Positions 2,102-62,274 of a stretch of DNA of 64,000 nt are shown one piece after another. Numbering within the stretch: the stretch's first letter is position 1; the number at the start of each line of letters is the position of its first letter. The position numbers were made by a program, and so were the translations under genes. The DNA is from Arenicola marina (lineage: Eukaryota > Annelida > Polychaeta > Arenicolidae): assembly GCA_964019135.1 (NCBI GenBank), contig OZ025248.1, forward strand, positions 44,447,670 to 44,511,669, written 5' to 3'. The notes under the pieces are model-generated. The model did no database searches. It was not told where the DNA came from and was given only the letters and a program-made list of their open reading frames with translations.

Positions 2102-4179
2102 TCAGTAAATATCAACACCGGCGCTATCTTTTACATCAAACCCACCCACTAGATGAAGGCTTTGAATAGCACAACACTTTTCGATGTTAAAAAGCAAGCA
2201 TGACGGCGTACGCAAGCAGCACTCCCGTAAATGGTTTATTTTTCACAAGTTAGTACGTATTTTGTCAGCGTTCGACTTCAGAAAAGCGCCGGGAATAAGA
2301 ATACAGTTTGTAGATTGCAAAAAGGTAAATATTTTAAGCACTATAGTTAAGACATTTTAAGCTGGCAGCTTTCGAAAATTTTGATGTCAGAAATACACCG
2401 ATATATGAACTATAAAGCAAATGTATTTAGGCCCTATTTGAAAAGGGAACCTTCAGAAAACTAACTAACACACATAAGCAGACATCATGTCAGCAACCAT
2501 TTTAGAAAATGCCTGGATCCCCAAACAAGAATACTCAACTGATTCCCCTGGTCAGACTGAAAGGCTGCTGAAGTAGCTCTACAGTGTTGTCATTTATATA
2601 CCAATCCTAGCTAATTAAACTTATGAAGAAAGCTGCTGAATCTGATTTAATTTAATTGCTTCCAGTTAAAAAAGTGAAGCTATGTTGAATATATTGGCGA
2701 AAGTTATTATTTTTCATTACATCGCGAATATAGGATTATAGGATTTGAAATATGGTGAGATTTTGTACAGCCACTTGTAACGTTTGTTGCCCGGGTTAGT
2801 GTCCATTTAATATCCGTCTTAGATTTGTAACATCAATGATTTCTTCTTTTCCTTTGCTTTGTGTATCTTGATATATTTTAATTGCTAAATGAAATTAATG
2901 AATTTGTTGCCCCACTATCTTCAACACGGGACAACTATCTGATTTTCTTTTTGTAGTAGACCTAGCGATATAACGATAGCTTGACTTTCTTGTCGTCGTT
3001 TTCGGGTAATACCTTTCGTATTGATGAATTTGACTGATATCTTGTTCATATATCATGGGTATTTCCTGTGAACGAATTAAACACGCGGGGTGATGGTGGT
3101 GGCCGGGGTAAGGGGGCTTGATGCATTGGTGTGTTTGGGACCTTTTTCACCTCCAAAATCCGCTGAAGGGGTATCTTTTTGCCATTGACCGCGCTGCGCC
3201 GTCGTTTCATGCTGATTTATTCAAATGCTGGTTTATACTGTTTTCTCGATGTGGTATGAGATCGCGCCCGCCAAGAAATGTTGTCCGGGCCGTAGTGCGC
3301 CTCCGTATTAGCGCTTTGCCCATGATGGCCATGAAAACTCGCCCTCTTTACAATGAGATGATTACATTTATCATCACGCGAACACACCTAAATACTAACA
3401 AATATTATATAATGCGACTGACACTGGCTGCGATGTTATTGCATTCTCATTTGGTCGATGTGGGAGCTGTCACATACTGTTTTGTGTCCCACCCTCAACC
3501 CACCGACTCATTCTGTGGACGTGGTGGCTGTTTGATAAGAGCGGACCAAATTTTATAGCGTCGTACCATAAAATTGTGTATTGCGCATGCCTTATATTGG
3601 ATCCGCAGGCTACTTGCTGGCGAAGGTTCATGTAAAGATTTATTTAATTTATACACTTATCTGTAAGGAAAAGAATATATGTTGAGAACTAGAGTCGAGG
3701 TTGTTATAGAAGTTAAAATTATTTATAAAAACACTTTGGTAGATGTATTCAGGGCTTAGGTAAAGTTACGACATGTACAGTCCAACGAAGATGTGAGATG
3801 CATGCCGTTACGAATAACTACGTTTTGTGCAACATTAATTAACCAAGCGGAAGCAAGAGTTTGTTGATAAATGTACTATATATATATATTAGTAGATGAA
3901 AATGGTACAATGTACAGTTGGGGGAAGTTTATAATACGACATAGAGTGCAAATTACCTTGGCAGATTACTACAGCCTCATACATTGTATCCCCCGAGAGT
4001 AGAACAGACAACTTGGTGGGGAAATGAATAGATTAGAAACCAACGAGTTGTAAATGCGAGTTATGTTATCTATTGACACTTGGTTTAAAATTTAGCAAAT
4101 GCAATGAGGTTAAGTGGTCTCAACACGTTAATGTCAAGATATCGGAAGCAGATTGGGTAAGGTATTACATGGTGCCGTA
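2102..4179. other. No gene seen
   Basis: About 2 kb of AT-rich DNA. A 146-codon plus frame at 3118-3558 has no recognisable domain, signal peptide or repeat and is judged chance. No RNA gene or transposon end was recognised. Confidence 0.6.
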
Positions 4180-29045: not shown

Positions 29046-30273
29046 CTTAGCTGGCTCAATCTGTGTTTCGGCCCAATATTCAAGCAATATTAACTCACTA
29101 TAGATTACGCCGACATTGATATTTAGGCTCAAATGAAAGCCCGTTGTTCGAATTTGCCACTCATGTATACAGCTTTCAGCCATATGAATCTGTTATAAAA
29201 TAGGTAATTTTGGTTTTGTCGTACCAATTATAGACGCCAGGTCGCATGTTTATCTAATTAACTATTTTACGATATATGGAGATACATCATAAGTGACATT
29301 GCCGGAGAGCGCGCGTTCAGACCCTCCCGCCGGTATAATTGGTATGACGATTACATGGATTTGGAGAAAGTGATATGTAATTCCGTGTCCCAGGAAACAC
29401 AAATTGAAGACTGGTCAGGAAATTCTAGGCAGCTCACTTTGGTTCTGGAGGCTGGCTCACCATCGCGTCCGCCAGGCGCCAATATAAGGGCCGGAAGACC
29501 AAACTTCGAAGAATTTGAAACATATTGGCATTCTCTTTAATTTGTCGGTTGTGATATTGGAGATCTCGGATAAACCCGCTGCCTGGGTAAGCACCCCCGG
29601 TTTCGGCTCTAGAAAAGTTCCTTTGGCGTCAGAAGAAAACCGGACTGATATATGTAAATGGCTTGTCTTGGCGTACTTAAAAACGTCCAGCTGGCAGAGC
29701 GACACCTTGCGGCCGAGATCCATTTCTAATGGCGCGGAAATAAGATGGACGTCATTCCCTTCTCACCCGCTGACCAATAATCGCAGGCGTACGTGGCACG
29801 GCTTGGGCTGGCTTCAACGCATAGCTGCGGTCTATTGTCGTCGGCCGAAACCTGGGAGGGTATCTATTAGTATAGCTCTATTTAACAACATAGTGCAGGG
29901 ACTCCTTGGAATACCACCTGAGCCCCAATTGTTTTGTTAGTTCCAGTCCGATTACCCTTCTGAGAGAGCCTCTCGGCTGCAGCAGCTGATTTTGCCATTA
30001 AACAGATAATCGATATGGCATGTGGCTATAAAGTGACCAGCAGAAACTGCCAGAGAGAGATTTGCAGCATTGGCGGCATCTTTATTACTAAATAACCAGC
30101 ATTAGATTATACACTAAGCACGGTCAAAAGCGTTTTATCGCGCGAATCCAAATACCGTTAAGACGTCAACATGTCGTTGATATATAATATATCATTACAG
30201 CTACATGGAAAGTGTAATTTTGATACTTGATCATATATGTGATAATGAATTATTTCTTGATCACGTTTCTTCA
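29046..30273. other. No gene recognised upstream of the ATP-grasp exon
   Basis: Frames at 29355-29540 and 29515-29940 (plus) and 29457-29723 (minus) have no recognisable domain. One or more upstream exons of the ATP-grasp gene may lie here, since its reading frame starts just behind a 3' splice site. Confidence 0.45.
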
Positions 30274-30281
30274 GGTCCGAT

Positions 30282-31442
30282 ATGTTGACAATCAGCGACA
30301 TTTACTCTCAAGATGTCGACCGAGACACGGTATTTGTGCTGGAGTACCCGACCAGCCACCCAGATTTGCGCAACGACGAAAGGTTTTTCCGGAATACCAC
30401 AAAGTATCTCCTGGATGACGTTTCGCTCAAAGCGGATTATAATAACTTCCACGTTGAGATACCGCACCGGGCTATGTCTGTGTTTGGAGACAAGGCCAGG
30501 GTGTACGCTGATGACGTCAGACCGGACCCCAGGCTGGAGGAACACTGGGACCGGAAGCTGGGTCGCCGCGGCAAGCTGCGCTACGCCGACCTGGGGGAAG
30601 ATGGCGTGCCACACGTCGTCCTCTGCCCGATGGAAGTTCTGCCGCGCGAGCTGCACGCCATCGACCCGGACGCCCACTATCGCGTCCACTCCAAGGCCTT
30701 CATCCCGACGGTGGCCTGCCCCCAGCCCGAGGTGCTCCACTCCCTGAGGCTGCCGGCCGTCCTCAAGGCCTGCCGGGCCTCCGGCAGCGAGGGGACCTGG
30801 AAGATACGCACCCAGGAGGACTACAACAACAGGATGTCGTGGCTGAAGGAACACCTGCCTTGGGCTGACATCCTCCTCACGAAAATGATCGAGGACGTAG
30901 TTGTAGATCACGATTGCAATGTTTACATCAATAAGAAAGGTGAGATGACGTGGATAGGGTCCACTGTTGAAAGTTTTGACAAAGATGACTTCTGGTGCGG
31001 ATCCTTCTGCGATATGGACAATGAGGAGAACGTTAAGCGCTCCCACCATTCAGTGGTTGAAGCAGTCGCCAAGGCTTTACATCAGCAGGGGTATTTCGGT
31101 TGGTGTGGGATGAACATCTTGCAGGACTCCAACAACAAGCTCTATCTGGTCGACATCAACCCTCGAATTTGCGGATCGACCGGTTTTCTCTTGGCCTGTA
31201 GGGTCATGAAGCAACGTGGATGGCCTTGGGGCTTGTTCAAGGCCGACTGCACTTCACAGAAGAGTTTGCATGACGTCATCAAAGCGGCAGACGACGTTCG
31301 GGGTCATGGCGAAGTGTTAATAATGTCTGGTAGTTACCGAAACGACTCAACTCGATTTCAAATTGCTTTCTTCTCCCGCTCCAAACAAGGAGCGCTCGAC
31401 ATATCAGAGAAATTCCTGTCCGAAGTGTTACATGCGGCGTAA
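30282..31442 (+). CDS. ATP-grasp domain protein
   Basis: 386 residues in one exon. ATP-grasp enzymes use ATP to join a carboxylate to an amine or similar nucleophile through an acylphosphate. Visible signs: VLKACRASGSEGTW at about 160-173 (nucleotide-binding lysine and Gly/Ser loop), ILLTKMIEDVVVDHD at 197-211, YFGWCGMNIL at 271-280, and DINPR at 291-295, the Mg-binding end of the fold. The substrate cannot be told from sequence. The upstream part (1-150) is presumably the pre-ATP-grasp region. A good 3' splice site (TTTCTTCAG) ends at 30274, seven bases before the ATG. Either the start lies in exon 2 behind a 5' untranslated exon, or more N-terminal coding exons exist. Codons about 65-195 are much richer in G/C at third positions than the rest. 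The long antisense frame at 30261-31049 is a shadow. Confidence 0.82.
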   Translation: MLTISDIYSQDVDRDTVFVLEYPTSHPDLRNDERFFRNTTKYLLDDVSLKADYNNFHVEIPHRAMSVFGDKARVYADDVRPDPRLEEHWDRKLGRRGKLRYADLGEDGVPHVVLCPMEVLPRELHAIDPDAHYRVHSKAFIPTVACPQPEVLHSLRLPAVLKACRASGSEGTWKIRTQEDYNNRMSWLKEHLPWADILLTKMIEDVVVDHDCNVYINKKGEMTWIGSTVESFDKDDFWCGSFCDMDNEENVKRSHHSVVEAVAKALHQQGYFGWCGMNILQDSNNKLYLVDINPRICGSTGFLLACRVMKQRGWPWGLFKADCTSQKSLHDVIKAADDVRGHGEVLIMSGSYRNDSTRFQIAFFSRSKQGALDISEKFLSEVLHAA

Positions 31443-38133: not shown

Positions 38134-40663
38134 CTCTCCCCTGCTAAAGTGTCACAGTCCCATGTGATACGTGACCAACATAAAGCCACATCATATGAAA
38201 CCAAAGACATAAATATATACATTTCGACAACGTAGCGTTGACACCAGTGCTCTCACTTCGTGTCAGTTACAACGCCCTCGGCGTCCTTAAGGAATCGCGC
38301 CGCAAGGTTCCACAACCTGACCACGATCTCCTGCGAACTGACAACACGAGGTTCTCGTTGGGGGTAGTCCTTCCGTCCCGCTGTGCGTCGTGTGGATCGT
38401 CGCGGCCCCGGTAGTCGCGGTGGTGTCCCAACAGAGCTTTCGTCTCGAGCCGCCACGTCCTCGGGTTTGTCGTCACCGGATCCTGGCAGCTGGCTTTCGC
38501 TGGCACGACGCTCTGTCGGAACCGCGGCTGGTGGGTGCTGGAGCTCAGCCTGCATGTCTGGCTCCGCCTGCAAGTCGGCCGACTTCCGCTCATTCCCGCG
38601 ATGACTCGGCCTCACATGACACCTCTGGCGTGTCTGCGGCGGGTGAACCGCCACGATAAAGCCATCGTCGTCGTCCGTGGAGTGGTCAATGATGGGGCGC
38701 GACGAGGGTTTCGGCAACTCGGGCCCACCATGTTGCGGCCGCGGCTGAGGCAACGGTTGGGGTGGCACCAGGGCCACAGTCAGGCGTAGGTTGGATCGGG
38801 TGACCTTCCTCGTGTCTCCGCCACCCACTGGCTGTACACCGTACATGTTGTACCCGAAGACCTCTGTCACCTGGTGCAGATCCGGAGCCCATCCGTCTTG
38901 CCTCGAGCTACCCGACGGTGCTTCGTTCCGCAGGTAGACGTACGCGCCGGGTCGCAGGACTGGATCTGCCCGGGCGTGCTCCTCGTCCACTGCCTCCAGC
39001 CTCTCCCCTGCTGTGAGGCTGTCATCTCCTGGGTGGTCTTTGTGGGCCTCCTGTCTAGTCCGGTCGTCCCGCTTCAATTGCCTATCGACGTCCCGATCAG
39101 CCCTTCCTTTCGAATCCGGGTTCGTTTCCGGCCGGACAGAGCCGACCGCCTGACCCGCTGGTACTGAGGCCGGTGCGGTGCAATTCTCAGGCACTGGGCC
39201 CGCCGCTGGTCCATAAGAGCGTGTGGAGAACGTCTGCACCCCTACACCTTGGCGTCCTTTCTCCGCGCCGGTCCATCTTCTCTCGCTGCAGTTCCGGGCC
39301 AGGTGACCGAGCCGACCGCAGCGGTAGCACTTCCGCTGGCTCCGCGCAGGGCAGTCGCGCTTTAAGTGGCCCTGTTGGCCGCACCTGAAACAGGCCCCTC
39401 CGCGGATCCGCCTGCCCGTCGGACAGTCCCTGACGACGTGACCAGTACGTTTACATCTGTAGCACATACGAACGAAGGTGCGTGTTGAACCAGACTCCCG
39501 AGATGTCACCACCTGGCTCACAGTGGTGCGGGACACTCGTTTCCCGCAGGATGTCCATTCTGCCCCGGCGCATTCTGTTGAGTCCGCAGGGGGCATCTCG
39601 TGGCTAGGTGGCCAACCTGGCCACAGTGGTAACACACATACGCCACCCGATGAGCCAGGTGCCCACCGCCTGGGTGGTCGGGTGTACCTGACCCTGCAGC
39701 CCTAGCCGCCTGCGTGGCGACAATCTCCTGGACGGCCTTCGTCAGGTCACACAGCACGCTTTGCTGACTGCGCATGGCGGCCATCAGCGCAGCAATACTG
39801 TCCTCACTAGGGAGTGCTGGACGTTGTGGCCGTCGACCAGGAGGACTGTCGCACTGCACCACGTGACACTCAGCCACGCTGGGGGCAGCTGACTGCCTGT
39901 CGCCCTCTTCCATCCAGAGAACACTCTTCTCGGAGGTCCATGAAGCTTATCGACGGTCGTTCCCGTACTAACTGCTTGAGACGCCGTCTCAACTGCGAGT
40001 CAAGCACTCCCTCTGCGAATTGGTCACGAAGTGAGAAGTCCGGATTGGGAAGTGCGTGAACGTCTTTAGCCTTGACCTTCTCTGTTAGCGATGACAAGGC
40101 GTAGGAGTACGCGCGCAGGGACTCTGTCGGACTCTGCCTGAGGTCATAGAACGTCCTCAACAGCTGTGACAGGGAACGCACCTCGTCGAACACACTGCGC
40201 AGGGTGTGAAACACGTCGCTGGCCTCCCGCGGACCAGGTCCCAACAATACCTCCTGCTTCGCTGCTCCCTCCAAGTGGGACACAACAAAGTCACAGGCGT
40301 CACGCGCGGACAGATCGCGCGTCCGAATGACGTGTTGCACGTCTGCGATGAAGTCTTCAAGCGGGGGATCTCCGTGGCCGGCGCCAGCGAACTTGTCGAT
40401 CCTCCGCTCCCTGGGGAGGTACACCAGCGGGGGAGCTGACTGCCCTCGCTGAGCCTCCAGTCGGCGCGCCGTGTCTCTCACTTCGGCCTGCTTCTTGGTT
40501 AAGTCTGCCACCATGGCAAGCAGACTTTCCATCGTGACGGGCTGTTCGCCCCCTTCCTCTTCAGCTGCATATGCAGCCCCGTCTCTCATCGCAAATGCTG
40601 GCACCACCGTTTTCTATTACACCGGGAGTTTGATTGCGGCGAAATCCTGCCGACTGCGCCAAT

Positions 40664-43953: not shown

Positions 43954-46900
43954 TTAGGAGAGGAAAACTCGCACGGTTCCCCGGATACTTTGTCGACATA
44001 TCGGACAGAGACGCAGGGCCGGGGCGCAGTTTCCGCAGCACACGAGGTGGCCGCACGGCAGGAAGACGATGTTCACCTCAGAGTCCATGCACACCTTGCA
44101 CATGCGCTGCTCCTTCATGCGGTCGTTCTCTTCAGCCAGAGAACCCGGATCTGTAATGATAGAACAAGGACAGGGTTAACAATAGCACACGGGAGGGGTG
44201 TGTTACCTTTTGAGGGTCAACATCAGGGGTAGACTCCTACTTTCATTATGGTCTGACTATATGGTACTGCTCCAACGGACTTTCAGGATACCATCGTCAA
44301 TATGAGGTCTCGACTCCTACTTTCATTATGGTCTGACTATGGTACCGTTTGTTCCAACCGGACTTTCAGGATACCATCGTCAATATGAGGTTTTGACGCC
44401 TACTTTCATTATGGTCTGACTATATGGTACCGTTTGTTCTAACGGACTTTCAGGATACCATCGTCAATATTAGGTCTCGACTCCTACTTTCATTATGGTC
44501 TGACTATGGTACCGTTTGTTCCAAGTGACTTTCAGGATACCATCGTCAATATGAGGTTTTGACGCCTACTTTCATTATGGTCTGACTATCTGGTACTGTT
44601 CCAAGGGACTTTCAGGATACCATCGTCAATATGAGGTTTTGACGCCTACTTTCATTATGTTATGATTATCTGGTACTGTTCCAAGGGACTTTCAGGATAC
44701 CATCGTCAATATGAGGTCTTGACTCCTACTTCCATTATGGTCTGACTATATGGTACCGTTTGTTTCAAGGGACTTTCAGGATACCATCGTCAATATGAGG
44801 GCTCGACTCCTACCTTGATCGTCGTCTGAGTCTCTGCCTCCCTCGGCACCCTGGGTCTCGAGGCTCTCTGGCTCTTCGGGGTCAAGTTCTTCCGGGTCCC
44901 CGGGGGTCTCACCCTCACCCTCTCCCGGCTTGCGGACCTCCTGGTCGACGGCCGCACGCTTCTTCTTCTCCTTCAGCCTCAGCCGCTTCCTCTTACCTGT
45001 ATGGTGGGGATCAGAACAGATAAAGCACCAATGTAACATATAGGCCGCTTCCTCTTACCTGTATGGTGGGAATCAGAACATATAAAGCACCAATGTAACA
45101 TATAGGCCGCTTCCTCTTGCCTGTATGGTGGGAATCAGAACATATAAAGCACCAATGTAACATATAGGCCGCTTCCTCTTGCCTGTATGGTGGGAATCAG
45201 AACATATAAAGCACCAATGTAACATATAGGCCGCTTCCTCTTGCCTGTATGGTGGGAATCAGAACATATAAAGCACCAATGTAACATATAGGCCGCTTCC
45301 TCTTGCCTGTATGGTGGGAATCAGAACATATAAAGCACCAATGTAACATATAGGCCGCTTCCTCTTACCTGTATGGTGGGGATCAGAACATATAAAGCAC
45401 CAATGTAACATATAGGCCGCTTCCTCTTGCCTGTATGGTGGGAATCAGAACATATAAAGCACCAATGTAACATATAGGCCGCTTCCTCTTACCTGTATGG
45501 TGGGAATCAGAACATATAAAGCACCAATGTAACATATAGGCCGCTTCCTCTTACCTGTATGGTGGGAATCAGAACAGATAAAGCACCAATGTAACATATA
45601 GGCCGCTTCCTCTTACCTGTATGGTGGGAATCAGAACATATAAAGCACCAATGTAACATATAGGCCGCTTCCTCTTGCCTGTATGGTGGGAATCAGAACA
45701 TATAAAGCGCCAATGTAACATATAGGCCGCTTCCTCTTGCCTGTATGGTGGGAATCAGAACATATAAAGCACCAATGTGACATATAGGCCGCTTCGTCTT
45801 GCCTGTATGGTGGGAATCAGAACATATAAAGCACCAATGTAACATATAGGCCGCTTCCTCTTGCCTGTATGGTGGGAATCAGAACATATAAAGCACCAAT
45901 GTAACATATAGGCCGCTTCCTCTTACCTGTATGGTGGGGATCAGAACATATAAAGCACCAATGTAACATATAGGCCGCTTCCGCTTACCTGTATGGTGGG
46001 AATCAGAACATATAAAGCACCAATGTAACATATAGGCCGCTTCCTCTTACCTGTATGGTGGGAATCAGAACAGATAAAGCACCAATGTAACATATAGGCC
46101 GCTTCCTCTTGCCTGTATGGTGGGAATCAGAACATATAAACACCCATGTGACATATAGGCCGCTTCCTCTTACCTGTATGGTGGGAATCAGAACAGATAA
46201 AGCACCAATGTAACATATAGGCCGCTTCCTCTTACCTGTATGGTGGGAATCAGAACATATAAAGCACCAATGTGACATATAGGCCGCTTCGTCTTGCCTG
46301 TATGGTGGGAATCAGAACATATAAAGCACCAATGTAACATTTAGGCCGCTTCCTCTTGCCTGTATGGTGGGGATCAGAACAGATAAAGCACCAATGTAAC
46401 ATATAGGCCGCTTCCTCTTGCCTGTATGGTGGGAATCAGAACATATAAAGCACCAATGTGACATATAGGCCGCTTCCTCTTGCCTGTATGGTGGGAATCA
46501 GAACATATAAAGCACCAATGTAACATATAGGCCGCTTCCTCTTGCCTGTATGGTGGGAATCAGAACATATAAAGCACCAATGTAACATATAGGCCGCTTC
46601 CTCTTGCCTGTATGGTGGGAATCAGAACATATAAAGCACCAATGTGACATATAGGCCGCTTCGTCTTGCCTGTATGGTGGGGATCAGAACATATAAAGCA
46701 CCAATGTAACATATAGGCCGCTTCCTCTTGCCTGTATGGTGGGAATCAGAACATATAAAGCACCAATGTAACATATAGGCCGCTTCCTCTTGCCTGTATG
46801 GTGGGAATCAGAACATATAAAGCACCAATGTGACATATAGGCCGCTTCGTCTTGCCTGTATGGTGGGGATCAGAACATATAAAGCACCAATGTAACATAT

Positions 46901-49900
46901 AGGCCGCTTCCTCTTACCTGTATGGTGGGAATCAGAACAGATAAAGCACCAATGTAACATATAGGCCGCTTCCTCTTACCTGTATGGTGGGAATCAGAAC
47001 ATATAAAGCACCAATGTGACATATAGGCCGCTTCGTCTTGCCTGTATGGTGGGAATCAGAACATATAAAGCACCAATGTAACATATAGGCCGCTTCCTCT
47101 TGCCTGTATGGTGGGAATCAGAACATATAAAGCACCAATGTAACATATAGGCCGCTTCCTCTTGCCTGTATGGTGGGAATCAGAACATATAAAGCACCAA
47201 TGTAACATATAGGCCGCTTCCTCTTACCTGTATGGTGGGAATCAGAACATATAAACATCAATGTAACATATAGGCCGCTTCCTCTTGCCTGTATGGTGGG
47301 AATCAGAACATATAAAGCACCAATGTAACATATAGGCCGCTTCCTCTTACCTGTATGGTGGGGATCAGAACATATAAAGCACCAATGTAACATATAGGCC
47401 GCTTCCTCTTGCCTGTATGGTGGGAATCAGAACATATAAACATCAATGTAACATATAGGCCGCTTCCTCTTGCCTGTATGGTGGGAATCAGAACATATAA
47501 AGCACCAATGTAACATATAGGCCGCTTCCTCTTACCTGTATGGTGGGGATCAGAACATATAAAGCACCAATGTAACATATAGGCCGCTTCCTCTTGCCTG
47601 TATGGTGGGAATCAGAACATATAAAGCACCAATGTAACATATAGGCCGCTTCCTCTTGCCTGTATGGTGGGAATCAGAACATATAAAGCACCAATGTAAC
47701 ATATAGGCCGCTTCCTCTTGCCTGTATGGTGGGAATCAGAACATATAAAGCACCAATGTAACATATAGGCCGCTTCCTCTTACCTGTATGGTGGGAATCA
47801 GAACATATAAAGCACCAATGTAACATATAGGCCGCTTCCTCTTGCCTGTATGGTGGGAATCAGAACATATAAGCACCCATGTGACATATAGGCCGCTTCC
47901 TCTTACCTGTATGGTGGGAATCAGAACATATAAAGCACCAATGTAACATATAGGCCGCTTCCTCTTGCCTGTATGGGGGCAATCAGAACATATAAACATC
48001 AATGTAACATATAGGCCGCTTTCTCTTACCTGTATGGGGGCAATCAGAACACATAAACACCAATGTGACATATAGGCCGCTTCCTCTTGCCCGTATGGTG
48101 GGAATCAGAACATATAAACACTGACAAACATGGGACAAAACGAGTGGTATAGATGAAATAGTTTGTATATTTTATCATATTTAAAGGGAAAAGCTTATCT
48201 TTGAAATAAATTTTTTTTTTGCGAATTGTATCATACATGTAAAATAGGTCATCTTGGGGCGCATGCGCAATTCCCTTTAAATTAAACCCCTCGTAACATG
48301 GCGATGCACAATGTTAACAACCTATAAATAGATCGTTACAATGTCGGCTCGTGCGGAGTATCGTATGTTTCAAGATACACGAGGTGGTCATTTACATGTG
48401 TATTCGATGTTGGCAGCCTTTTGAAATAAATAACGTCTACAATTGGTAAACATTAGCATCATCATTGGACGTGTTGAACTATAGTATGTCACGTACTCTT
48501 CGTTAAAGCTTGCTCACTTGCACCAGAAGCCGCCGCCCCCGACGATGCGGACGAGGCGCTGGGTGGGCCTGAGGGGGTGGGTGCCCCTGACGACGCGTGA
48601 GAGGCCTGGGTTCGGGTGGGTCGGGCCCGGGGGCCCCCGCGCTCCTCCTCCTCCTGGGCGTCGAACACCGCCTGGATCAGGCTCGCCGAGGTAGGAAAAT
48701 CGTTTCCTACGGAGGCAAACAAGAAGTAATAGGGTAATGGAAAACCAAAATGGCCACTTCATTGACCGTAGAATAATATCATCATGTCAAGTAAAATAAA
48801 GTATCAATTGTAACAGCATTTCAATTACAATTGCAATATCATATCACAATCTCACTTATAACCGCATGAGATCTCGTACCGATGCGAATAACAACTTATC
48901 CTTAAGACCATAGTAAGTGCTCGGCAACTAAACAAAAACATACAAATATTCGGTAAATCCATGGAATTATATTTTGACTTGAAACGAGTATACGTATTTC
49001 TCAAGTATAAACACTGCATTTCATCCTTTTTCATTCAAATTACTTGCCGAATATTATACAATTCTAGTCCTGCCAGCAGCAGGCTGCCCTTACTGGGCTA
49101 GTCCTGCCAGCAACAGGCTGCCCTTACTGGGCTAGTCCTGTCAGCAGCAGGCTGCCCTTACTGGGCTAGTCCTGTCATCAGCAGGCTGCCCTTACTGGGC
49201 TAGTCCTGTCATCAGCAGGCTGTCCTTACTGGGCTAGTCCTGCCAGTAACAGGCTGCCCTTACTGGGCTAGTCCTGTCAGCAACAGGCTGCCCTTACTGG
49301 GCTAGTCCTGTCATCAGCAGGCTGCCCTTACTGGGCTAGTCCTGTCATCAGCAGACTGCCTGTACTGGGCTAGTCCTGCCAGTAACAGGCTGCCCTTACT
49401 GGGCTAGTCCTGCCAGTAACAGGCTGCCCTTACTGAGCTAGTCCTGTCAGCAACAGGCTGCCCTTACTTGGCTAGTCCTGTCATCAGCAGACTGCCTGTA
49501 CTAGACTAGTCCTGTCATCAGCAGGCTGCCTTTACTGGGCTAGTCCTGTCAGCAGCAGACTGCCTGTACTGGGCTAGTCCTGTCAGCAGCAGGCTGCCCG
49601 TACTGGGCTAGTCCTACCAGCAGCAGGCTGCCCTTACTGGGCGAGTCCTGTCGGCAGCAGGCTGCCCATACTGGGCTAGTCCTGTCAGCAGCAGACTGCC
49701 TGTACTGGGCTAGTCCTGTCATCAGCAGGCTGCCCTTACTGGGCTAGTCCTGCCAGCAGCAGGCTGTCCTTACTGGGCTAGTCCTGCCAGCAGCAGGCTC
49801 CCCTGACTGGGCTAGTCCTGTCAAATGCAGGCTGCCCATACTGGGCTAGTCTTGTCAGCAGCAGACTGTCTGTACTGGGCTAGTCTTGTCAGCAGCAGGC

Positions 49901-52900
49901 TGCCCGTACTGGGCTAGTCCTACCAGCAGCAGGCTGCCCTTACCGGGCTAGTCCTGTCAGCAGCAGGCTGCCTGCACTGGGCTAGTCCTGTCAGCAGCAG
50001 ACTGCCTGTACTGGGCTAGTCCTGTCAGCAGCAGGCTGCTTGTACTCGGCGAGTCCTGTCAGCAGCAGGCTGCCCTTACTGGGCTAGTCCTGTCAGCAGC
50101 AGGCTGCCCTTACTGGGCGAGTCCTGCCAGCAGCAGGCTGCCCGTACTGGGCTAGTCCTGTCAGCAGCAGGCTGCCTGTACTGGGCTAGTCCTGTCAGCA
50201 GCAGACTGCCTGTACTGGGCTAGTCCTGTCAGCAGCAGGCTGCCTGTACTAAGCTAGTCCTGTCAGCAGCAGGCTGCCCTTACTGGGCGAGTCCTGTCCG
50301 CAGCAGGCTGCCCGTACTCGGCGAGTCCTGTCAGCAGCAGGCTGCCTGTACTGGGCTAGTCCTGTCAGCAGCAGGCTGCCCTAACAGGGCTAGTCCTGTC
50401 AGCAGCAGGCTGCCCTTACTGGGCGAGTCCTGTCAGCAGCAGGCTGCCCTTACTCGGCGAGTCCTCCCAGCAGCAGGCTGCCTGTACTGGGCTAGTCCTG
50501 TCAGCAGCAGGCTGTCCTTACTGGGCGAGTCCTATCAGCAGCAGGCTGCCCTTACTGGGCTAGTCCTGTCAGCAGCAGGCTGCTCGTACTGGGTTAGTCC
50601 TGTCAGCAGCAGGCTGCCCGTACTGGGCGAGTCCTTTCAGCAGCAGGCTGTCCTTACTGGGCTAGTCCTCTAAGCAACAGGCTGCCCTTACTGGGCTAGT
50701 CCTGTCAGCAGCAGGCTGCTTGTACTGGGCGAGTCCTGCCAGCAGCAGGCTGCCCTTACTGGGCTAGTCCTGTCGGCAGCAGGCTGCTCTTACTGAGCGA
50801 GTCCTGCCAGCAGCAGGCTGCCCTTACTGGGCTAGTCCTGTCAGCAGCAGGCTGCCCGTACTCGGCGAGTCCTGTCAGCAGCAGGCTGCCCGTACTGGGC
50901 GAGTCCTGTCAGCAGCAGGCTGCCCGTACTCGGCGAGTCCTGTCAGCAGCAGGCTGCCTGTACTGGGCTAGTCCTGTCAGCAGCAGGCTGCCCTTACTGG
51001 GCTAGCCCTGTCAGCAGCAGGCTGCCCTTACTGGGCGAGTCCTGTCAGCAGCAGGCTGCCCTTACTCGGCGAGTCCTCCCAGCAGCAGGCTGCCTGTACT
51101 GGGCTAGTCCTGTCAGCAGCAGGCTGTCCTTACTGGGCGAGTCCTGTCAGCAGCAGGCTGCCCTTACTGGGCTAGTCCTGTCAGCAGCAGGTTGCCCTTA
51201 CTGGGCTAGTCCTGCCAGCAGCAGGCTGCCCGTACTGGGCTAGTCCTGTCAGCAGCAGGCTGCCTGTACTGGGCTAGTCCTGTCAGCAGCTGGCTGCCCT
51301 TACTCGGCGAGTCCTGTCATCAGCAGGCTGTCTGTACTCGGCGAGTCCTGTCAGCAGCAGGCTGCCCTTACTCCGCGAGTCCTGTCAGCAGCAGGCTGCC
51401 TGTACTGGGCGAGTCCTGTCAGCAGCAGGCTGCCTGTACTGGGTGAGTCCTGTCAGCAGCAGGCTGCCTGTACTCGGCGAGTCCTGTCAGCAGCAGGCTG
51501 CCCTTACTCCGCGAGTCCTGTCAGCAGCAGGCTGCCTGTACTCGGCGAGTCCTGTCAGCAGCAGGCTGCCCTTACTCCGCGAGTCCTGTCAGCAGCAGGC
51601 TGCCCGTACTGGGCTAGTCCTGTCAGCAGCAGGCTGCCCTTACTGGGCTAGTCCTGTCAGCAGCAGGCTGCCCTTACTGGGCGAGTCCTGTCCGCAGCAG
51701 GCTGCCCGTACTCGGCGAGTCCTGTCAGCAGCAGGCTGCCTGTACTGGGCTAGTCCTGTCAGCAGCAGGCTGCCCTAACTGGGCTAGTCCTGTCAGCAGC
51801 AGGCTGCCCTTACTGGGCGAGTCCTGTCAGCAGCAGGCTGCCCTTACTCGGCGAGTCCTCCCAGCAGCAGGCTGCCTGTACTGGGCTAGTCCTGTCAGCA
51901 GCAGGCTGTCCTTACTGGGCGAGTCCTATCAGCAGCAGGCTGCCCTTACTGGGCTAGTCCTGTCAGCAGCAGGTTGCCCTTACTGGGCTAGTCCTGCCAG
52001 CAGCAGGCTGCCCGTACTGGGCTAGTCCTGTCAGCAGCAGGCTGCCCTTACTGGGCTAGTCCTGTCAGCAGCAAGCTGCCTGTACTGGGCTAGTCCTGTC
52101 AGCAGAAGGCTGCCCTTACTGGGCTAGTCCTGTCAGCAGCAGGCTGCCCTTACTCGGCGAGTCCTGTCAGCAGCAGGCTGCCTGTACTCGGCGAGTCCTG
52201 TCAGCAGCAGGCTGCCCTTACTTCGCGAGTCCTGTCAGCAGCAGGCTGCCTGTACTCGGCGAGTCCTGTCATCAGCAGGCTGCCTGTACTCGGCGAGTCC
52301 TGTCAGCAGCAGGCTGCCTGTACTGGGCGAGTCCTGTCAGCAGCAGGCTGCCTGTACTCGGCGAGTCCTGTCAGCAGCAGGCTGCCTGTACTGGGTGAGT
52401 CCTGTCAGCAGCAGGCTGCCCGTACTCGGCGAGTCCTGTCAGCAGCAGGCTGCCTGTACTGGGCTAGTCCTGCCAGCAGCAGGCTGCCCTTACTGGGCTA
52501 GTCCTGTCGGCAGCAGGCTGCTCTTACTGAGTGAGTCCTGCCAGCAGCAGGCTTCCCTTACTGGGCTAGTCCTGCCAGCAGCAGGCTGCCCTTACTGGGC
52601 TAGTCCTGTCAGCAGCAGGCTGCCCTTACTCGGTGAGTCCTGTCAGCAGCAGGCTGCCCTTACTGGGCTAGTCCTATCAGCAGCTGGCTGCCCTTACTGG
52701 GCGAGTCCTGTCAGCAGCAGGCTGCCCTTACTCGGCGAGTCCTGTCAGCAGCAGGCTGCCTGTACTCGGCGAGTCCTGTCAGCAGCAGGCTGCCCTTACT
52801 GGGCGAGTCCTGTCAGCAGCAGGCTGCCCTTACTGGGCTAGTCCTGTCAGCAGCAGGCTGCCCTTACTGGGCGAGTCCTGTCAGCAGCAGGCTGCCCTTA

Positions 52901-55900
52901 CTGGGTTTATCTATCCAGCATGTCGGTGGGGCCGCCAAAGTCGTTAAGCGACTGCCTAACATGAAAACGGAAGGCGTTCGATATATGGAACTGGTGGTTG
53001 TTGATTGTTTGTCATCAAAGCTTCAACGTATGTATACAAGAGTACCCTGCTAAACAATTCCTGGAACTTCGCAAGCAGCTGTCGGATATGATCACAGTAC
53101 ACACGATTTTGGCCCCCTTGTTAATAAGAAAGCTCAAAACTGAGAACCGGTGTGTCGTTAGCTGCTTTGCCATGACCAGTGCTTTCAAGACAAAAAACAT
53201 TTGATTGGTCGCTTTATATAATGTGACATACCTTCTGTGCGCAGGCGCTGTTCGATGACTTTCATGATCAGAGACTCTGGGAAGTCCATCTGGAGCACAG
53301 TCTGGACCGTGGCGGATGCCATCCGGGCTCTCACACTGGCTGGATCAACCTGGTACATCACCCCAGGCACGCCTGTTACCACGACAAGCAGTGTAAATAT
53401 GCATGTATGTTTATGACAGCAACATCAGTCCCATGCATGAGGCGCCTTGCATCAAAGGGATTAATCCACGCATTGATAATTCAAACAACAAAATTGTCAG
53501 GTAAGTTTAGTAATATAAATGTCCTATTTTTACGCTGTGTTAGTTATCCCAGGTGGCCTGAGGACCACATAAAGCAACCATGCATATTTCAGCATCAGTA
53601 CATCAAATATAATGACAGAATGTCTATGTGGGTGGGGGTTTACGGCAGCAGTCCTTACACGTACCCGCCGTGGGTGTTGGAGGCACCGCGATGTCTCCAC
53701 CTGATGACGCTGGCGCACGGTCATCCTGGAAGCAAAAGAACAAAAGTCAGGTCAATTGTTTAGTGGCTGAAAAAGTCGCATCTTCACACACGCTTTAGAG
53801 CTGAATGGACTGCTAACATCCTCGCCCCATTCCCGTGTTTGCGGAGATATTTCCACAAGTAACAGTTAGTGTACATTATAAGCTGCTATCACAGCTGTCC
53901 CAGAATGCTAATTGCAAAGATTTTGAATACGAGTGACGGCTTACATTGCAAAAATATATGTTATAGTTGCTCTACAATGCCACTGTCGCTAGTCGCAGAC
54001 CCAGTAGCCAGCTTACGTAGTGGGCTTGTATCGAGCGGATGTAGTCCTCTCCCTTGCACATCTTAAGGAAGCCACACTGGGGAAACCAACGCGCATGCTC
54101 AGACCACGGGTCATCCGACGGCTCCCAGTTTCTCAGCCCACCATCGCAGAAGAAACACTTGCAGTTGTCCCCATAGCCTAAAAGAAGAAAATTGTGCTAA
54201 AACTAAAAAAAAGTCAAGCCTTATATTTTCAAAACACTAGCCGCCCCGCTCGCGTGACGTCTAGCGTTCGTACTAATAAGCGAAAGAAATAACAGTAGGA
54301 CAGTATTTTGTTTTTACAGAATACTGAAATTGCGGCTAAAGCACGCTAATAAACGAATATCAGTCCAGTAAAACTAAGGCCCAAGCTCATACATGGATTG
54401 AGTAAAAAAAAAAGGGGTTTTTTTGAGTAAAAAAAGGGGCTGTTTCCCGCCCGTTGTTCGTCATTTAACGTGCCTTCAGTGGACAAAATTTGCTACTGAT
54501 GGGAAGTTGTGGACGCGAGACATTACGGGATTTGTTTGTTTTGATGACGGTTCGGGCGATAATGCGTTGGGAAAAATATTATTACTGTTGGCACCAAGCC
54601 AGGTAGCCCGCCGCAGACATGGTCACCATGCGGGATAAGCACCCGAAAGCGATATTATGCGCGGGATAAGGTGATAAGCACCCAGCGGTAGTGTTGACAC
54701 ATGCGATAGCGTTGACACATCTAAGAGCGACAAGGTTGATACATCCAAGGTGGACCATGCAGTGCATACAGTGGTTCGGTTGGATATAGGTTCAAGGCGG
54801 CTGCTGAAGCCAATGTCCTCTTGCATGCAGGGGCATAGTGGGACAGACAGCTTCATTTTATTAGTATAGATATTTTAAGCAAAACCGTTTAATGGGCCAC
54901 ACTAGCCTAAGCCAGGATATCAGTATCCTTCCAAAAATAAACATTATAACTGAAAGCTTCGTCTACCTGCCATGTACATATTAAACAACATTCGCTAGTA
55001 TGTATCAGTCTTGCCCTTCAACAAATGGTCTTTAATAAATTCGCCGTGGTACTCGTTGATTTATATTTTACTATGTATCTTATTTAAGAAGCCTGGAAAG
55101 TGTCTAATGTAGTGTCTGGATTTGCCGCACTGAAAACTTACTGAAAAGCAATGCAATATGTTCTGTGATTTGGACCAGCAACCACATATTTTAGACAGTT
55201 TAGTCCAGGCGAATGCACGAATGCCATAGTGAAACGAATAGAAAGACCGTAGCCGGTCAATGATGCAGCTGAGGTAATGAATGCGTAAACTTGCTGACAG
55301 TGGCAGCGAGTCGCAAGTTAAAAGTGACCGCGTAGGGGTTTGACCCCAGGATCACGTGACTGACGTGTAATGAGTGAATGAAAATGCAGTGTTGATGACG
55401 ACGATGAAGGAGAGTTGGATGACGCCCTAGTTGGTGAATGGTGGAACCGATTATGACACAATGCGAAATGATAATAGAAAGAAAAAGGAAAATGTAATAT
55501 TAGAATAGTTTCAATGAAAACGGTTACCCAAACAACCCTTTTCTTCCGTGATATACGCTAGCAATATAAACGTAGCCTTCATCCTATGGCACTGCGACTT
55601 TTGACACAAAAGCAAAAAAAAACATGTTAAATTATATAATACTACTATTACTGTGTAGATTACATTTAATGCAATACATATGTGGTTTGACAGTAGATAT
55701 GTATGGTCTGCCGCAGTTTCTCCTTTGCACCGAAAGCGCGTGGCGCACTGAAGAAGTTTCTAAACTTTAATGTAAAACGTTAAAATTAAACAATCGTAAG
55801 TAAACCAGACTTTGCTGTAACATACCGATGTAGAAGAATCCGGCCCGCGCCAACACTGACGGGCTGATGACGTTGGACTTGGGCCAGTTGGTGAAGGTGG

Positions 55901-57312
55901 CGGCCCGCGATGCCTCGATGGCGTATGCGGCATGCTTGGGTCTCTCCGTCAGCACACCCAAAGCCTCTGGGTCCTGTTCCATGGCCTGTGCAGGAAATAC
56001 AAGACAACGATATTGAGGTGACCATTTACAAGTCTATACGTTTGTTGGAAACAAAACACATACAAAGCGCGATATTTTAAGTGTGTTAATAGTAAGGGGG
56101 TGTAGCGTGCCTTTGCACTGGAGTTTTGACAGCGTCCCAATTATTTACATAATCACAGATTGTTTAGTATGTCATAAAAAGTTACTTCACGCTAGTACTA
56201 TGCCAATGATCAGGCCTGGTTATGGCAATTTATCCCTTTATCAAATGGATACAGAGTAAATGAGAGAAGTGGGGCGTTGTGTGTAAAGCAACGCGTGTAG
56301 CCAGATTACAAAGCAATACAGATTAACTCACATTGGCTCCTGACGTCTGTTGCAGTTCCGCTTCTAATGTGATGTTGTTGACATCCATCCCTCGCACGAA
56401 TGGACAAAAGCGGAAGTGACGTCGGTGTTCTTGCTTGACGTCATCCTCTGGGCGCCAGTTGCGGAGAGTGCCATTACAGAAGGCGCACTTCACTCGGTCC
56501 AAGCTCCCCAGATAGTAGAATCCGTTCTTGGCCAGCTCCGGGGGTCCGACGAACGAAGCCTCCGGCCATCCATGGAACGTACCGAGTCGGTAACCCTCCC
56601 GGTTGACCCTGGTCATGTCGACATCCGCCCTGCCGGTGGCGGGAGTTGATGACGGTAAAGACGTGAATGTGCGCGAGTTTTCCGGGGCCTGCGGTGTCGA
56701 GAGGCTCCTGACGACAGATTCTGGCACTGACCGGATCAGTGGATCGTCAGCCATAAGCAACTCCATCTGTTCAGCAAACGATTTCCCCTGAAGGTGTGGG
56801 TCGCTTTCGACACGCTGATTGACGTCGCGGAGCTCTGAATTGATGCTGTAGAGCTGTTCCAAACCCTTAAGGATGCATGACGTGTCTTGGGTGAGTGTAC
56901 TGGACCCTGTACCGCTAGTCCCACTGTGCCCTGGATTCTCTGCACGGGCATCGCTGCTGTCATCTCCATCGGCCTCGGGAGCGCAGGGGTCGGGTACCGC
57001 GATCAAGGGTACGTTGTCCGTGTCACGTCCAAGAACCAAGACACATCCAGGACTACGGCGGCGGTGTTCTGCCTCCGGCCTCTGCTCCGGTTGCCATTCA
57101 CCCATGTCGGAACCGCAGGAGAAGCAGCTCACGTGATCGCTGTTTCCAGTGTAATAGAGCCCAGCAGACGCCAGCTCAGTGGGCCTAACGCGGGCCCATG
57201 GCGGCCACGTGGTGAATGACGCCAGCCGGGCCAACTCATACTTCATCTCCTCTCCGGGAGAAAACGCAGGGCCACACACCATCTGCTTAAAGTAACTATC
57301 TGTCTCCGCCAT
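43954..57312 (-). CDS. Inhibitor of apoptosis protein, BIR-BIR-BIR-UBA-RING (XIAP-like), eight exons
   Basis: Model: exons 57312-56332, 55985-55826, 54177-54017, 53725-53665, 53372-53232, 48706-48518, 44996-44814 and 44150-43954; all junctions are GT-AG and the phases match, giving 690 aa. IAPs bind caspases or IAP antagonists through BIR zinc folds and ubiquitinate targets through a C-terminal RING E3. BIR1 is about 25-95 (C63, C66, H83, C90), BIR2 238-308 (C276, C279, H296, C303) and BIR3 348-415 (C388, C391, H408, C415). BIR3 keeps the groove tryptophans W398 and W411 and an acid at D402, so tetrapeptide binding is likely. UBA is about 457-520 across exons 5-6. A Ser/Ala/Pro linker follows, then exon 7 (566-625): a [13 protein letters not shown] stretch followed by an acidic tail. 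RING is 643-677 (C3HC4, [20 protein letters not shown]). There is no CARD, so it resembles XIAP rather than BIRC2/3. Exons 4 and 6 have alternative donors 6 and 21 bp away that keep the frame. AATAAA overlaps the stop codon. Confidence 0.9.
44225..44813 (-). repeat. Intron 7 minisatellite, 80-84-bp unit, about seven copies, starting at the exon 7 donor
   Basis: On the gene's strand, each unit starts GTAGGAGTC and contains TATTGACGATGGTATCCTGA. The first unit starts at the exact 5' splice site of exon 7 (CAAG/GTAGGAG), so the first intron bases recur seven more times. Units start near 44805, 44721, 44641, 44561, 44479, 44395, 44312 and 44232 (plus-strand positions of the GACTCCTAC motif). Confidence 0.92.
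44983..48120 (-). repeat. Intron 6 minisatellite, 62-bp unit, about 50 copies, carrying the exon 7 acceptor
   Basis: The last unit overlaps exon 7 itself. On the gene's strand, every unit contains CTGATTCCCACCATACAG followed by GTAAGAGGAAGCGGC or GCAAGAGGAAGCGGC. This is the 3' splice site and first 14 bases of exon 7. The boundary CAG/GTAAGA also matches a 5' splice site. Units are over 90% alike with a few short variants. The array fills about 90% of the 3.5-kb intron. Confidence 0.95.
48121..48517. other. Unique part of intron 6
   Basis: About 400 bp of AT-rich DNA between exon 6 and the 62-bp array, with a GGCGCATGCGCA site near 48258; nothing else seen. Confidence 0.5.
49062..52905. repeat. 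Intron 5 minisatellite, 34-bp unit, about 113 copies
   Basis: Unit on the plus strand: TAGTCCTGTCAGCAGCAGGC then TGCCCTTACTGGGC, with variants (CTGTACTGGGC, CTCGGCGAG). Larger multi-unit blocks repeat inside (for example 50.4-51.2 kb and 51.7-52.0 kb), showing stepwise growth. Open plus frames at 51443-51778 and 52395-52841 result from a stop-free unit and are not genes. Confidence 0.97.
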
Positions 57313-61170: not shown

Positions 61171-61584
61171 ATCAGCTGGAATTTTCTGCTACATTATAGT
61201 TTTCAACAATTAAACATAAAAATAATGAGCTTTGCGTATTTAATACAACAAAACGCATCTTGTACCCTTTCGAAATAGTTATAATTGTGACAGAACTCTT
61301 TTCTTTTCATCACCTGATTTCATGCGTTATTAGGCTTAGGCTGGGTCCCAGCATTAATTTGTAGAAATGGGTGACGCATCAGCTGGAATTTTCTGCTACA
61401 TTATAGTTTTCAACAATTAAACATAAAAATAATGAGCTTTGCGTATTTAATACAACAAAACGCATCTTGTACCCTTTCGAAATAGTTATAATTGTGACAG
61501 AACTCTTTTCTTTTCATCACCTGATTTCATGCGTTATTAGGCTTAGGCTGGGTCCCAGCATTAATTTGTAGAAATGGGTGACGC
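61171..61584. repeat. 207-bp tandem duplication, two apparently identical copies
   Basis: Copy 1 is 61171-61377 and copy 2 is 61378-61584. Each starts ATCAGCTGGAATTTTCTGC. No difference was seen by eye, so it is very recent or an assembly duplicate. Confidence 0.93.
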
Positions 61585-62274
61585 ATTTTTCCTATCAATC
61601 TGCGCAGCTCCGCCCTGCCGAGCGAGTGTGAAAATGCATTCAGGACGTAGGCGACAACAAAGATATAATGGAGCCCTAGCGGTGTAAGTCGAAGGCAGAG
61701 AGTGACCCTAGTGCTGCAAGGGGGCCGGGGTCGTGTTCCCACACCATGAAGAAAATTTCTTAATTCCCAGGTCACAATAAATTAAATAGAGAACTCACCG
61801 TATATAATGGACGGTGCGGATACATCATATAAAATATCATTCTCAGTGCACGATTGATGAAAATCATTGATCACGATGGTCGGCTAATATCTCATTCCCA
61901 GTTCCCGAAGAAATGAAACGCCTATTCCCGAGAAACGAAGAAACGGCAATACCCCCCCCCCCACCCCCCTCGAAAGTCCAGTCTGATATAAATTGACTGA
62001 ACTTTTAGTGTGTGAATTTGCTAGCTGAGACTTTGGGGAAAACACTTTGATTCAATTGATGAGCGAGGGAAGGGGGTGGGGTGATGTCAGAAGATAAAAC
62101 AAGGTATATAGAATACGTAAGCACTATGATTGTACGCGCACGCATTATGATAAAGGCTACAGTCAATTCCCGACTGGCGTCTAAAGAACTTTGCATGAAC
62201 ACCGTTGTGCCCCTAGTCCTAGAAAGCGGGCTTGCCTGGGGGCACTTGCGCCAAGAAAATTGTTGGCCATTTCT
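61585..62274. other. No gene seen; poly-C tract
   Basis: A poly-C run near 61955 is preceded by CACGA/CCCGAGAAACGAAG motifs of the dispersed family noted elsewhere. 62201-62254 is an inverted relative of 9335-9383. Confidence 0.5.

Follow-up and report, generated by a model that had tools for sequence, protein, structure and literature searches.

How can an intron made up largely of copies of its own 3' splice site still be removed to give a normal message, and how would such an intron come about? The question is raised by an IAP gene in a window of 64,000 nucleotides from the annelid Arenicola marina (contig OZ025248.1), in which about fifty tandem units containing the exon 7 acceptor fill most of intron 6. 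The answer we favor, and consider likely, is that this is a minisatellite of the 'mirage' type in an annelid IAP gene: a local duplication of the exon border, amplified some fifty-fold, close to neutral, with the mRNA made through the last acceptor. The evidence comes from a gene model, dissection of the array, related copies elsewhere in the genome and computed splicing consequences.

The host gene lies on the minus strand, where eight exons placed by hand close in phase and encode a protein of 690 aa. Its parts are as follows, in positions of the window:

56332..57312, minus strand: exon 1, with the start ATG and the first two BIR domains (gene model, Pfam)
55826..55985, minus strand: exon 2, start of the third BIR domain (gene model, Pfam)
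54017..54177, minus strand: exon 3, end of the third BIR domain (gene model, Pfam)
53665..53725, minus strand: exon 4 (gene model)
53232..53372, minus strand: exon 5 (gene model)
48518..48706, minus strand: exon 6, with the donor CAA/GTGAGC (gene model)
44814..44996, minus strand: exon 7, 183 bp, phase 1-1 (gene model; one-piece match of spliced exons 5-8)
43954..44150, minus strand: exon 8, RING finger and stop (gene model; Pfam zf-C3HC4_3)

Pfam recognized three BIR domains and a RING in the 690-aa protein, and the search for UBA gave no match at E ≤ 0.01; exon 5 we take to be UBA-like. The in-phase model and the domain matches bear out the original prediction that the array sits in intron 6 of an IAP gene. 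As exon 7 is of phase 1-1, skipping it would preserve the reading frame.

The array and the unit that adjoins the exon are placed as follows:

44982..48118, minus strand: array of 62-bp 3' splice-site units, 50.7 copies, over the intron 6/exon 7 border (Tandem Repeats Finder, unit dissection)
44982..45058, minus strand: exon-proximal unit, comprising the acceptor of exon 7 (junction 44997/44996) and 15 bases from the exon start (gene model, unit dissection)

Tandem Repeats Finder gave this array a period of 62, 96% matches and a score of 5798, and its limits agree to within 2 bp with those first noted for roughly 50 copies, 44983-48120. The array accounts for 3122 of the 3521 bp of intron 6 (89%), and 396 bp of the intron lie outside it. 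Dissection on the minus strand gave 50 units (44 of 62 bp and six of 61 bp) plus the exon 7 acceptor itself at 44997/44996, hence 51 junctions. Each unit joins about 47 bp of intron end to 15 bp of exon 7 and is thus part intron, part exon. That the units are built from the exon 7 border, with the last one serving as the real acceptor, had also been proposed, and the dissection agrees, as do the coding phase, the paralogues and the spliced exons 5-8 match described below. Of the unit content first described, CTGAT lies within 30 nt upstream of all 51 junctions and ACCATACAG is exact at 48 of them. On the exon side, the first 14 bases of exon 7 are exact at 17 of 51 junctions, or at 44 if T or C is permitted at base 2. 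AG is present at 50 of the 51, the most distal junction reading CGG. The A of CTGA is just 14 nt from the exon, a short distance for a branch point, and the real branch point may therefore be elsewhere.

Could the array be an artefact of assembly, either a shorter true array that was inflated or a longer one that collapsed, so that the copy number is wrong? The units are nearly identical, with 13 distinct sequences among the 44 of 62 bp, which would agree with such an error. Against it, there are 18 distinct sequences among all 50 units, and by eye their order along the array follows no simple repeating pattern; we regard an artefact as very improbable. The mean difference among units is 3.6%, and neighboring units are no more similar than other pairs (2.16 against 2.21 differences). 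The two most distal units depart furthest from the consensus (5 and 6 differences), and two others, the 4th and 32nd counted from the distal end, have 4 differences; over all 50 units, however, divergence does not vary significantly with position (rho -0.12, p 0.40). Variants of the exon-proximal unit recur within the array interior, and this fits exchange between units.

The polarity of these events can be read from related genes. Two paralogues on C2 (L042 and L043) begin exon 7 with GCAAGAGGAAGCGG, encoding SKRKRLR, one silent base from the gene here, and have an intron at the same position as intron 6, of 256 and 327 bp respectively, with no array in this intron in either. Since the same exon start exists there without an array, the exon border is older than the array, which grew from an existing border. 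For the same reason an origin as a new intron was rejected, intron 6 being already present in the array-free paralogues. Both paralogues have GC at the start of exon 7, so GC looks the older form and GT bears no sign of selection. A comparison of the unit's intron part with the intron ends of L042 and L043 did not establish homology, with local p values of 0.80 and 0.36 and ungapped p values of 0.05 and 0.07. A search of the genome (867 Mb, 762 contigs) with the 62-bp units returned 23 matches, all within the array itself; the search leaves out very common words, so that match counts are lower bounds. A dispersed satellite or mobile origin is not supported, the unit matches of this lower-bound search being confined to their own locus. 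We therefore propose that a stretch combining some 47 bp from the intron end with 15 bp of exon 7 was duplicated in tandem, with slippage or unequal exchange as the presumed route to some fifty-fold amplification. Because the entire border is copied, the copy adjoining the exon would remain an intact acceptor, and the array is probably near-neutral.

Near-neutrality has to be squared with what the units could do in splicing. GT follows the junction in 19 cases out of 51, that of exon 7 itself among them, and GC in 32; all 19 read CAG/GT, followed by AAGA in 18. Donor strength was computed as U1 pairing, that is as free duplex energies in which the register was not forced. The GT unit, CAG/GTAAGAGGA, pairs at -11.0 kcal/mol and the GC form at -6.3, compared with -4.6 to -9.8 for the seven donors of the gene model (-9.2 for exon 7 and -4.6 for exon 6). 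The original prediction had given every unit a decoy usable as both acceptor and donor; a strong dual-use donor is found at the 19 GT junctions only, since the other 32 have GC.

Such sites invite the idea of recursive or stepwise splicing, with each GT unit acting as a zero-length exon between mini-introns of 62 nt and all GT routes leading to the same mRNA. The GT units outpair all seven model donors, and joining exon 6 to a GT unit re-forms a donor (-4.5) about equal to exon 6's own. With a GC unit the re-formed donor is weaker (-3.1), so that recursion is conceivable at GT units only, and these are the minority. In addition, GC appears to be the ancestral form in the two paralogues, and the intron is merely 3.5 kb long. 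Recursive splicing is, in our judgement, improbable here. Under the favored reading, that of a near-neutral border minisatellite, normal mRNA would join exon 6 to the last acceptor, probably picked through exon definition as the sole one that precedes a real exon and its donor, and messages using a decoy acceptor would be expected to decay. The strong array donors weigh to some extent against exon definition: decoy acceptors precede array donors by 62 nt, and the GT ones outpair the exon 7 donor, so pseudo-exons of 62 nt are conceivable.

Splicing to any one of the 50 decoy junctions, of which 49 have AG, predicts products of 579-641 aa in place of 690 aa. As these end before exon 8, each decoy acceptor would, by this arithmetic, cost the protein its RING. 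It could thus be argued that the decoys are regulated, with array acceptors or exon 7 skipping producing isoforms that depend on array length and lack either the RING or the basic exon 7 segment. Survival of the frame when exon 7 is lost would agree with this, as would the presence of arrays at both borders of the exon. The downstream one is:

44232..44813, minus strand: second array, intron 7, seven units of 80-84 bp (Tandem Repeats Finder; one match in genome search)

Its first unit opens at base +1 of the exon 7 donor (GTAGGAGTC), and the units start GTAGG[AC]GTC, resembling that donor. By manual count the units match the exon 7 end at only 8 of 13 bases, so this array may lie flush with its border and not cross it. 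Exon 7 has arrays at both borders, and only the upstream array clearly spans its border; the intron-7 array is not related to the 62-bp array. Its single match in the genome search, again a lower bound, is at its own locus.

Set against regulated decoys are the two array-free paralogues and an intronless copy on C4. The genome search gave one further close match to exon 7, at C4:25869060-25869246 (95%), and spliced exons 5-8 (710 bp) match C4:25868863-25869596 as one piece, query 1-710, at 93% over 734 bp. The gene itself, unlike the C4 copy, matches the spliced query exon by exon. We read the C4 copy as a retrocopy. The 24 bp by which it exceeds the query (by arithmetic, exon 8 exactly 197 bp, with some 6 bp extra in exon 7 and some 18 bp extra in exons 5-6) are less than one unit, so no 62-bp unit is left in it. 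None of the 17 genome matches to exon 1 falls at this copy, which is thus probably 5'-truncated. It contains exon 7 and supports the predicted exon joins, although it may predate the array or derive from a lost sister gene. Regulated decoys therefore seem unlikely to us. The predicted exon 7 border is supported by the coding phase, by the same exon start in two paralogues and by the one-piece match of spliced exons 5-8, and the array-free paralogues together with the intronless copy allow the growth of the array to be polarized.

A third array lies within the gene:

49064..52905, strand not assigned: 34-bp array, 113 copies, inside intron 5 with over 300 bp between it and each border, not border-coupled (Tandem Repeats Finder, gene model)

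Arrays of 34 bp are fused to exon 5 in the C12 and C18 copies; these look like deletions rather than mirages. A few other homologues were inspected by eye for border coupling. In L041 one array stops 5 nt from the likely acceptor of exon 4, which it does not repeat, the exon in question having no tblastn match, and another in intron 2 is not border-coupled.

Similar arrays were sought more widely in the window and L026-L045, where arrays of period at least 20 and at least 2.8 copies came to 49 once overlapping rows were merged. AGGTRAG occurs in the consensus unit of none of the 49 (shuffle mean 0.43). AGGYRAG occurs in three, including the 62-bp array (shuffle mean 1.05, with three or more in 33 of 500 shuffles; none among reversed units). 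The other two are both in L037. Genome-wide, the triple pattern CAGGTRAG gave 26,176 matches, the highest of ten patterns, the nine controls giving 5,091, 17,788, 9,784, 8,426, 14,995, 17,641, 7,926, 9,392 and 9,031. This excess is suggestive at most, because long arrays yield many matches each and locations are known for the first ~100 only, and the motif counts among the 49 arrays weigh against it.

A bolder proposal links several of these threads in a 'splice-closed' array. GT units, being acceptor and donor at once, would allow any internal excision to restore the junction, so that the intron could expand indefinitely and, excised step by step, still yield the same mRNA; exon 7 inclusion would be tuned by array length; the basic start of exon 7 may act in nuclear localization; and border arrays would be general in the genome. 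Taken jointly we hold these claims to be quite unlikely.

The mitochondrial locus (L046, on contig C762), which holds the genome's only COX1 match, bears on the identity of the host. Its gene order is nad3, nad2, cox1, cox2, atp8, cox3, with nad3, cox1, cox2 and cox3 called by Pfam, nad2 taken from a Proton_antipo_M protein and atp8 found by reading the translation. There is no room for atp6 between atp8, which ends at 4034, and cox3, which starts at 4168. In annelids nad3 lies between nad1 and nad2, and atp6 has moved between cob and nad5, an arrangement seemingly limited to annelids and their kin (PMC2639372). The order in L046, in which nad1 and atp6 are not among the genes read, fits annelids and not amphioxus; it makes an annelid host very likely, and amphioxus was rejected as host on this ground. 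A Pfam search for GFP gave no match here or in any control genome and is therefore uninformative. Run under the bacterial code, ARAGORN detected no tRNA at this mitochondrial locus.

How does the array compare with known systems? Drosophila ratchet points, where recursive splicing takes place, occur singly in introns of great length and are backed by RNA evidence. The GT units resemble them in juxtaposing acceptor and donor as CAG/GTAAG, and 19 of the 51 junctions, that of exon 7 among them, have the juxtaposed CAG/GTRAG of such sites; here there are many sites within 3.5 kb. Introns can also be gained through tandem genomic duplication of AGGT segments, each unit becoming a GT...AG stretch (PMC3443670). 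The duplication of AG/GT is alike, but no new intron position has arisen here, as the array-free paralogues share intron 6. In human genes of recent duplication, internal tandem repeats that lie at exon-intron boundaries can change how the transcript is spliced and can form new introns (PMC2812944), whereas here the array is intronic save for 15 bp and sits in an intron that predates it. The CeRep25B minisatellite of C. elegans, over-represented near alternative splicing (PMC4039745), and a minisatellite in intron 1 of an earthworm metallothionein gene, itself an annelid case (PMC12783039), are intronic like the array here; border-spanning units are not reported for them in the accessible parts of these papers. 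Among the matches listed from the open-licence PMC literature, no annelid border minisatellite was recognized in titles and the starts of abstracts.

The closest counterparts are the 'mirages' of amphioxus, tandem repeats across exon-intron borders in Adh3 and the globins BflGb6 and BflGb9 (PMC3087553) and in TnC and PGBD5 (PMC3902484). Amphioxus mirages are reported to leave regular splicing undisturbed (PMC3087553, PMC3902484), and that of BflGb6 has 6 and 3 units in two haplotypes (PMC3087553). A likeness to amphioxus border minisatellites had been suspected from the start, and it is borne out: like the array here, mirages are, as far as the available text of these papers goes, tandem minisatellite units crossing an exon-intron border, many with AG/GT, and they are known at either border. 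The present case differs from those descriptions in its annelid host, its ~50 copies, the arrays flanking exon 7 on either side and its mostly GC junctions. The mirage cases in the portions of PMC3087553 and PMC3902484 at hand all come from lancelets, yet a cephalochordate host is not demanded by the mechanism, and an annelid case would show border minisatellites to be no peculiarity of cephalochordates. Beyond this, the array provides a natural setting in which to test how the spliceosome chooses one acceptor among 51 near-identical ones.

Other copies of the IAP gene in this genome also carry arrays. In those on contigs C12 and C18 (extracted loci L030 and L034), exon 5 has lost its second half and its remaining part directly abuts a 34-bp array; both arrays belong to one family with the window's intron 5 array. 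At L041, a third extracted locus, the array stops 5 nt upstream of a likely exon 4 acceptor, which is not part of the repeat.

L030:4021-9681, 34-bp array, 166.5 copies, at truncated exon 5 of an IAP copy
L034:4093-5108, 34-bp array, 29.9 copies, at truncated exon 5 of an IAP copy
L041:6784-7252, 31-bp array, 15.4 copies, in a further IAP paralogue

Exons 5-8 of the window gene were also found by genome search as a one-piece, intronless copy (C4:25868863-25869596, 93% identity). Among the matches listed by a genome pattern search, CAG/GTRAG occurs in the units of other arrays on contig C1 too.

C1:606015-612275, spacing 39 bp
C1:1064539-1067087, spacing 54 bp
C1:1754360 onward, spacing 34 bp

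Elsewhere in the window, three features were noted.

30261-31439, plus strand, open frame of 393 aa with an ATP-grasp match
38256-40613, minus strand, Gag-like retroelement, from zinc-knuckle stretches and weak domain matches
61171-61586, 207-bp tandem pair, 100% matches

Within the retroelement, zinc knuckles lie in three stretches at 38256-39701, and the segment at 39873-40613 weakly matches PNMA and Retrotrans_gag, each under its own cut-off. Because its copies match completely, the 207-bp pair is probably a very recent duplication.
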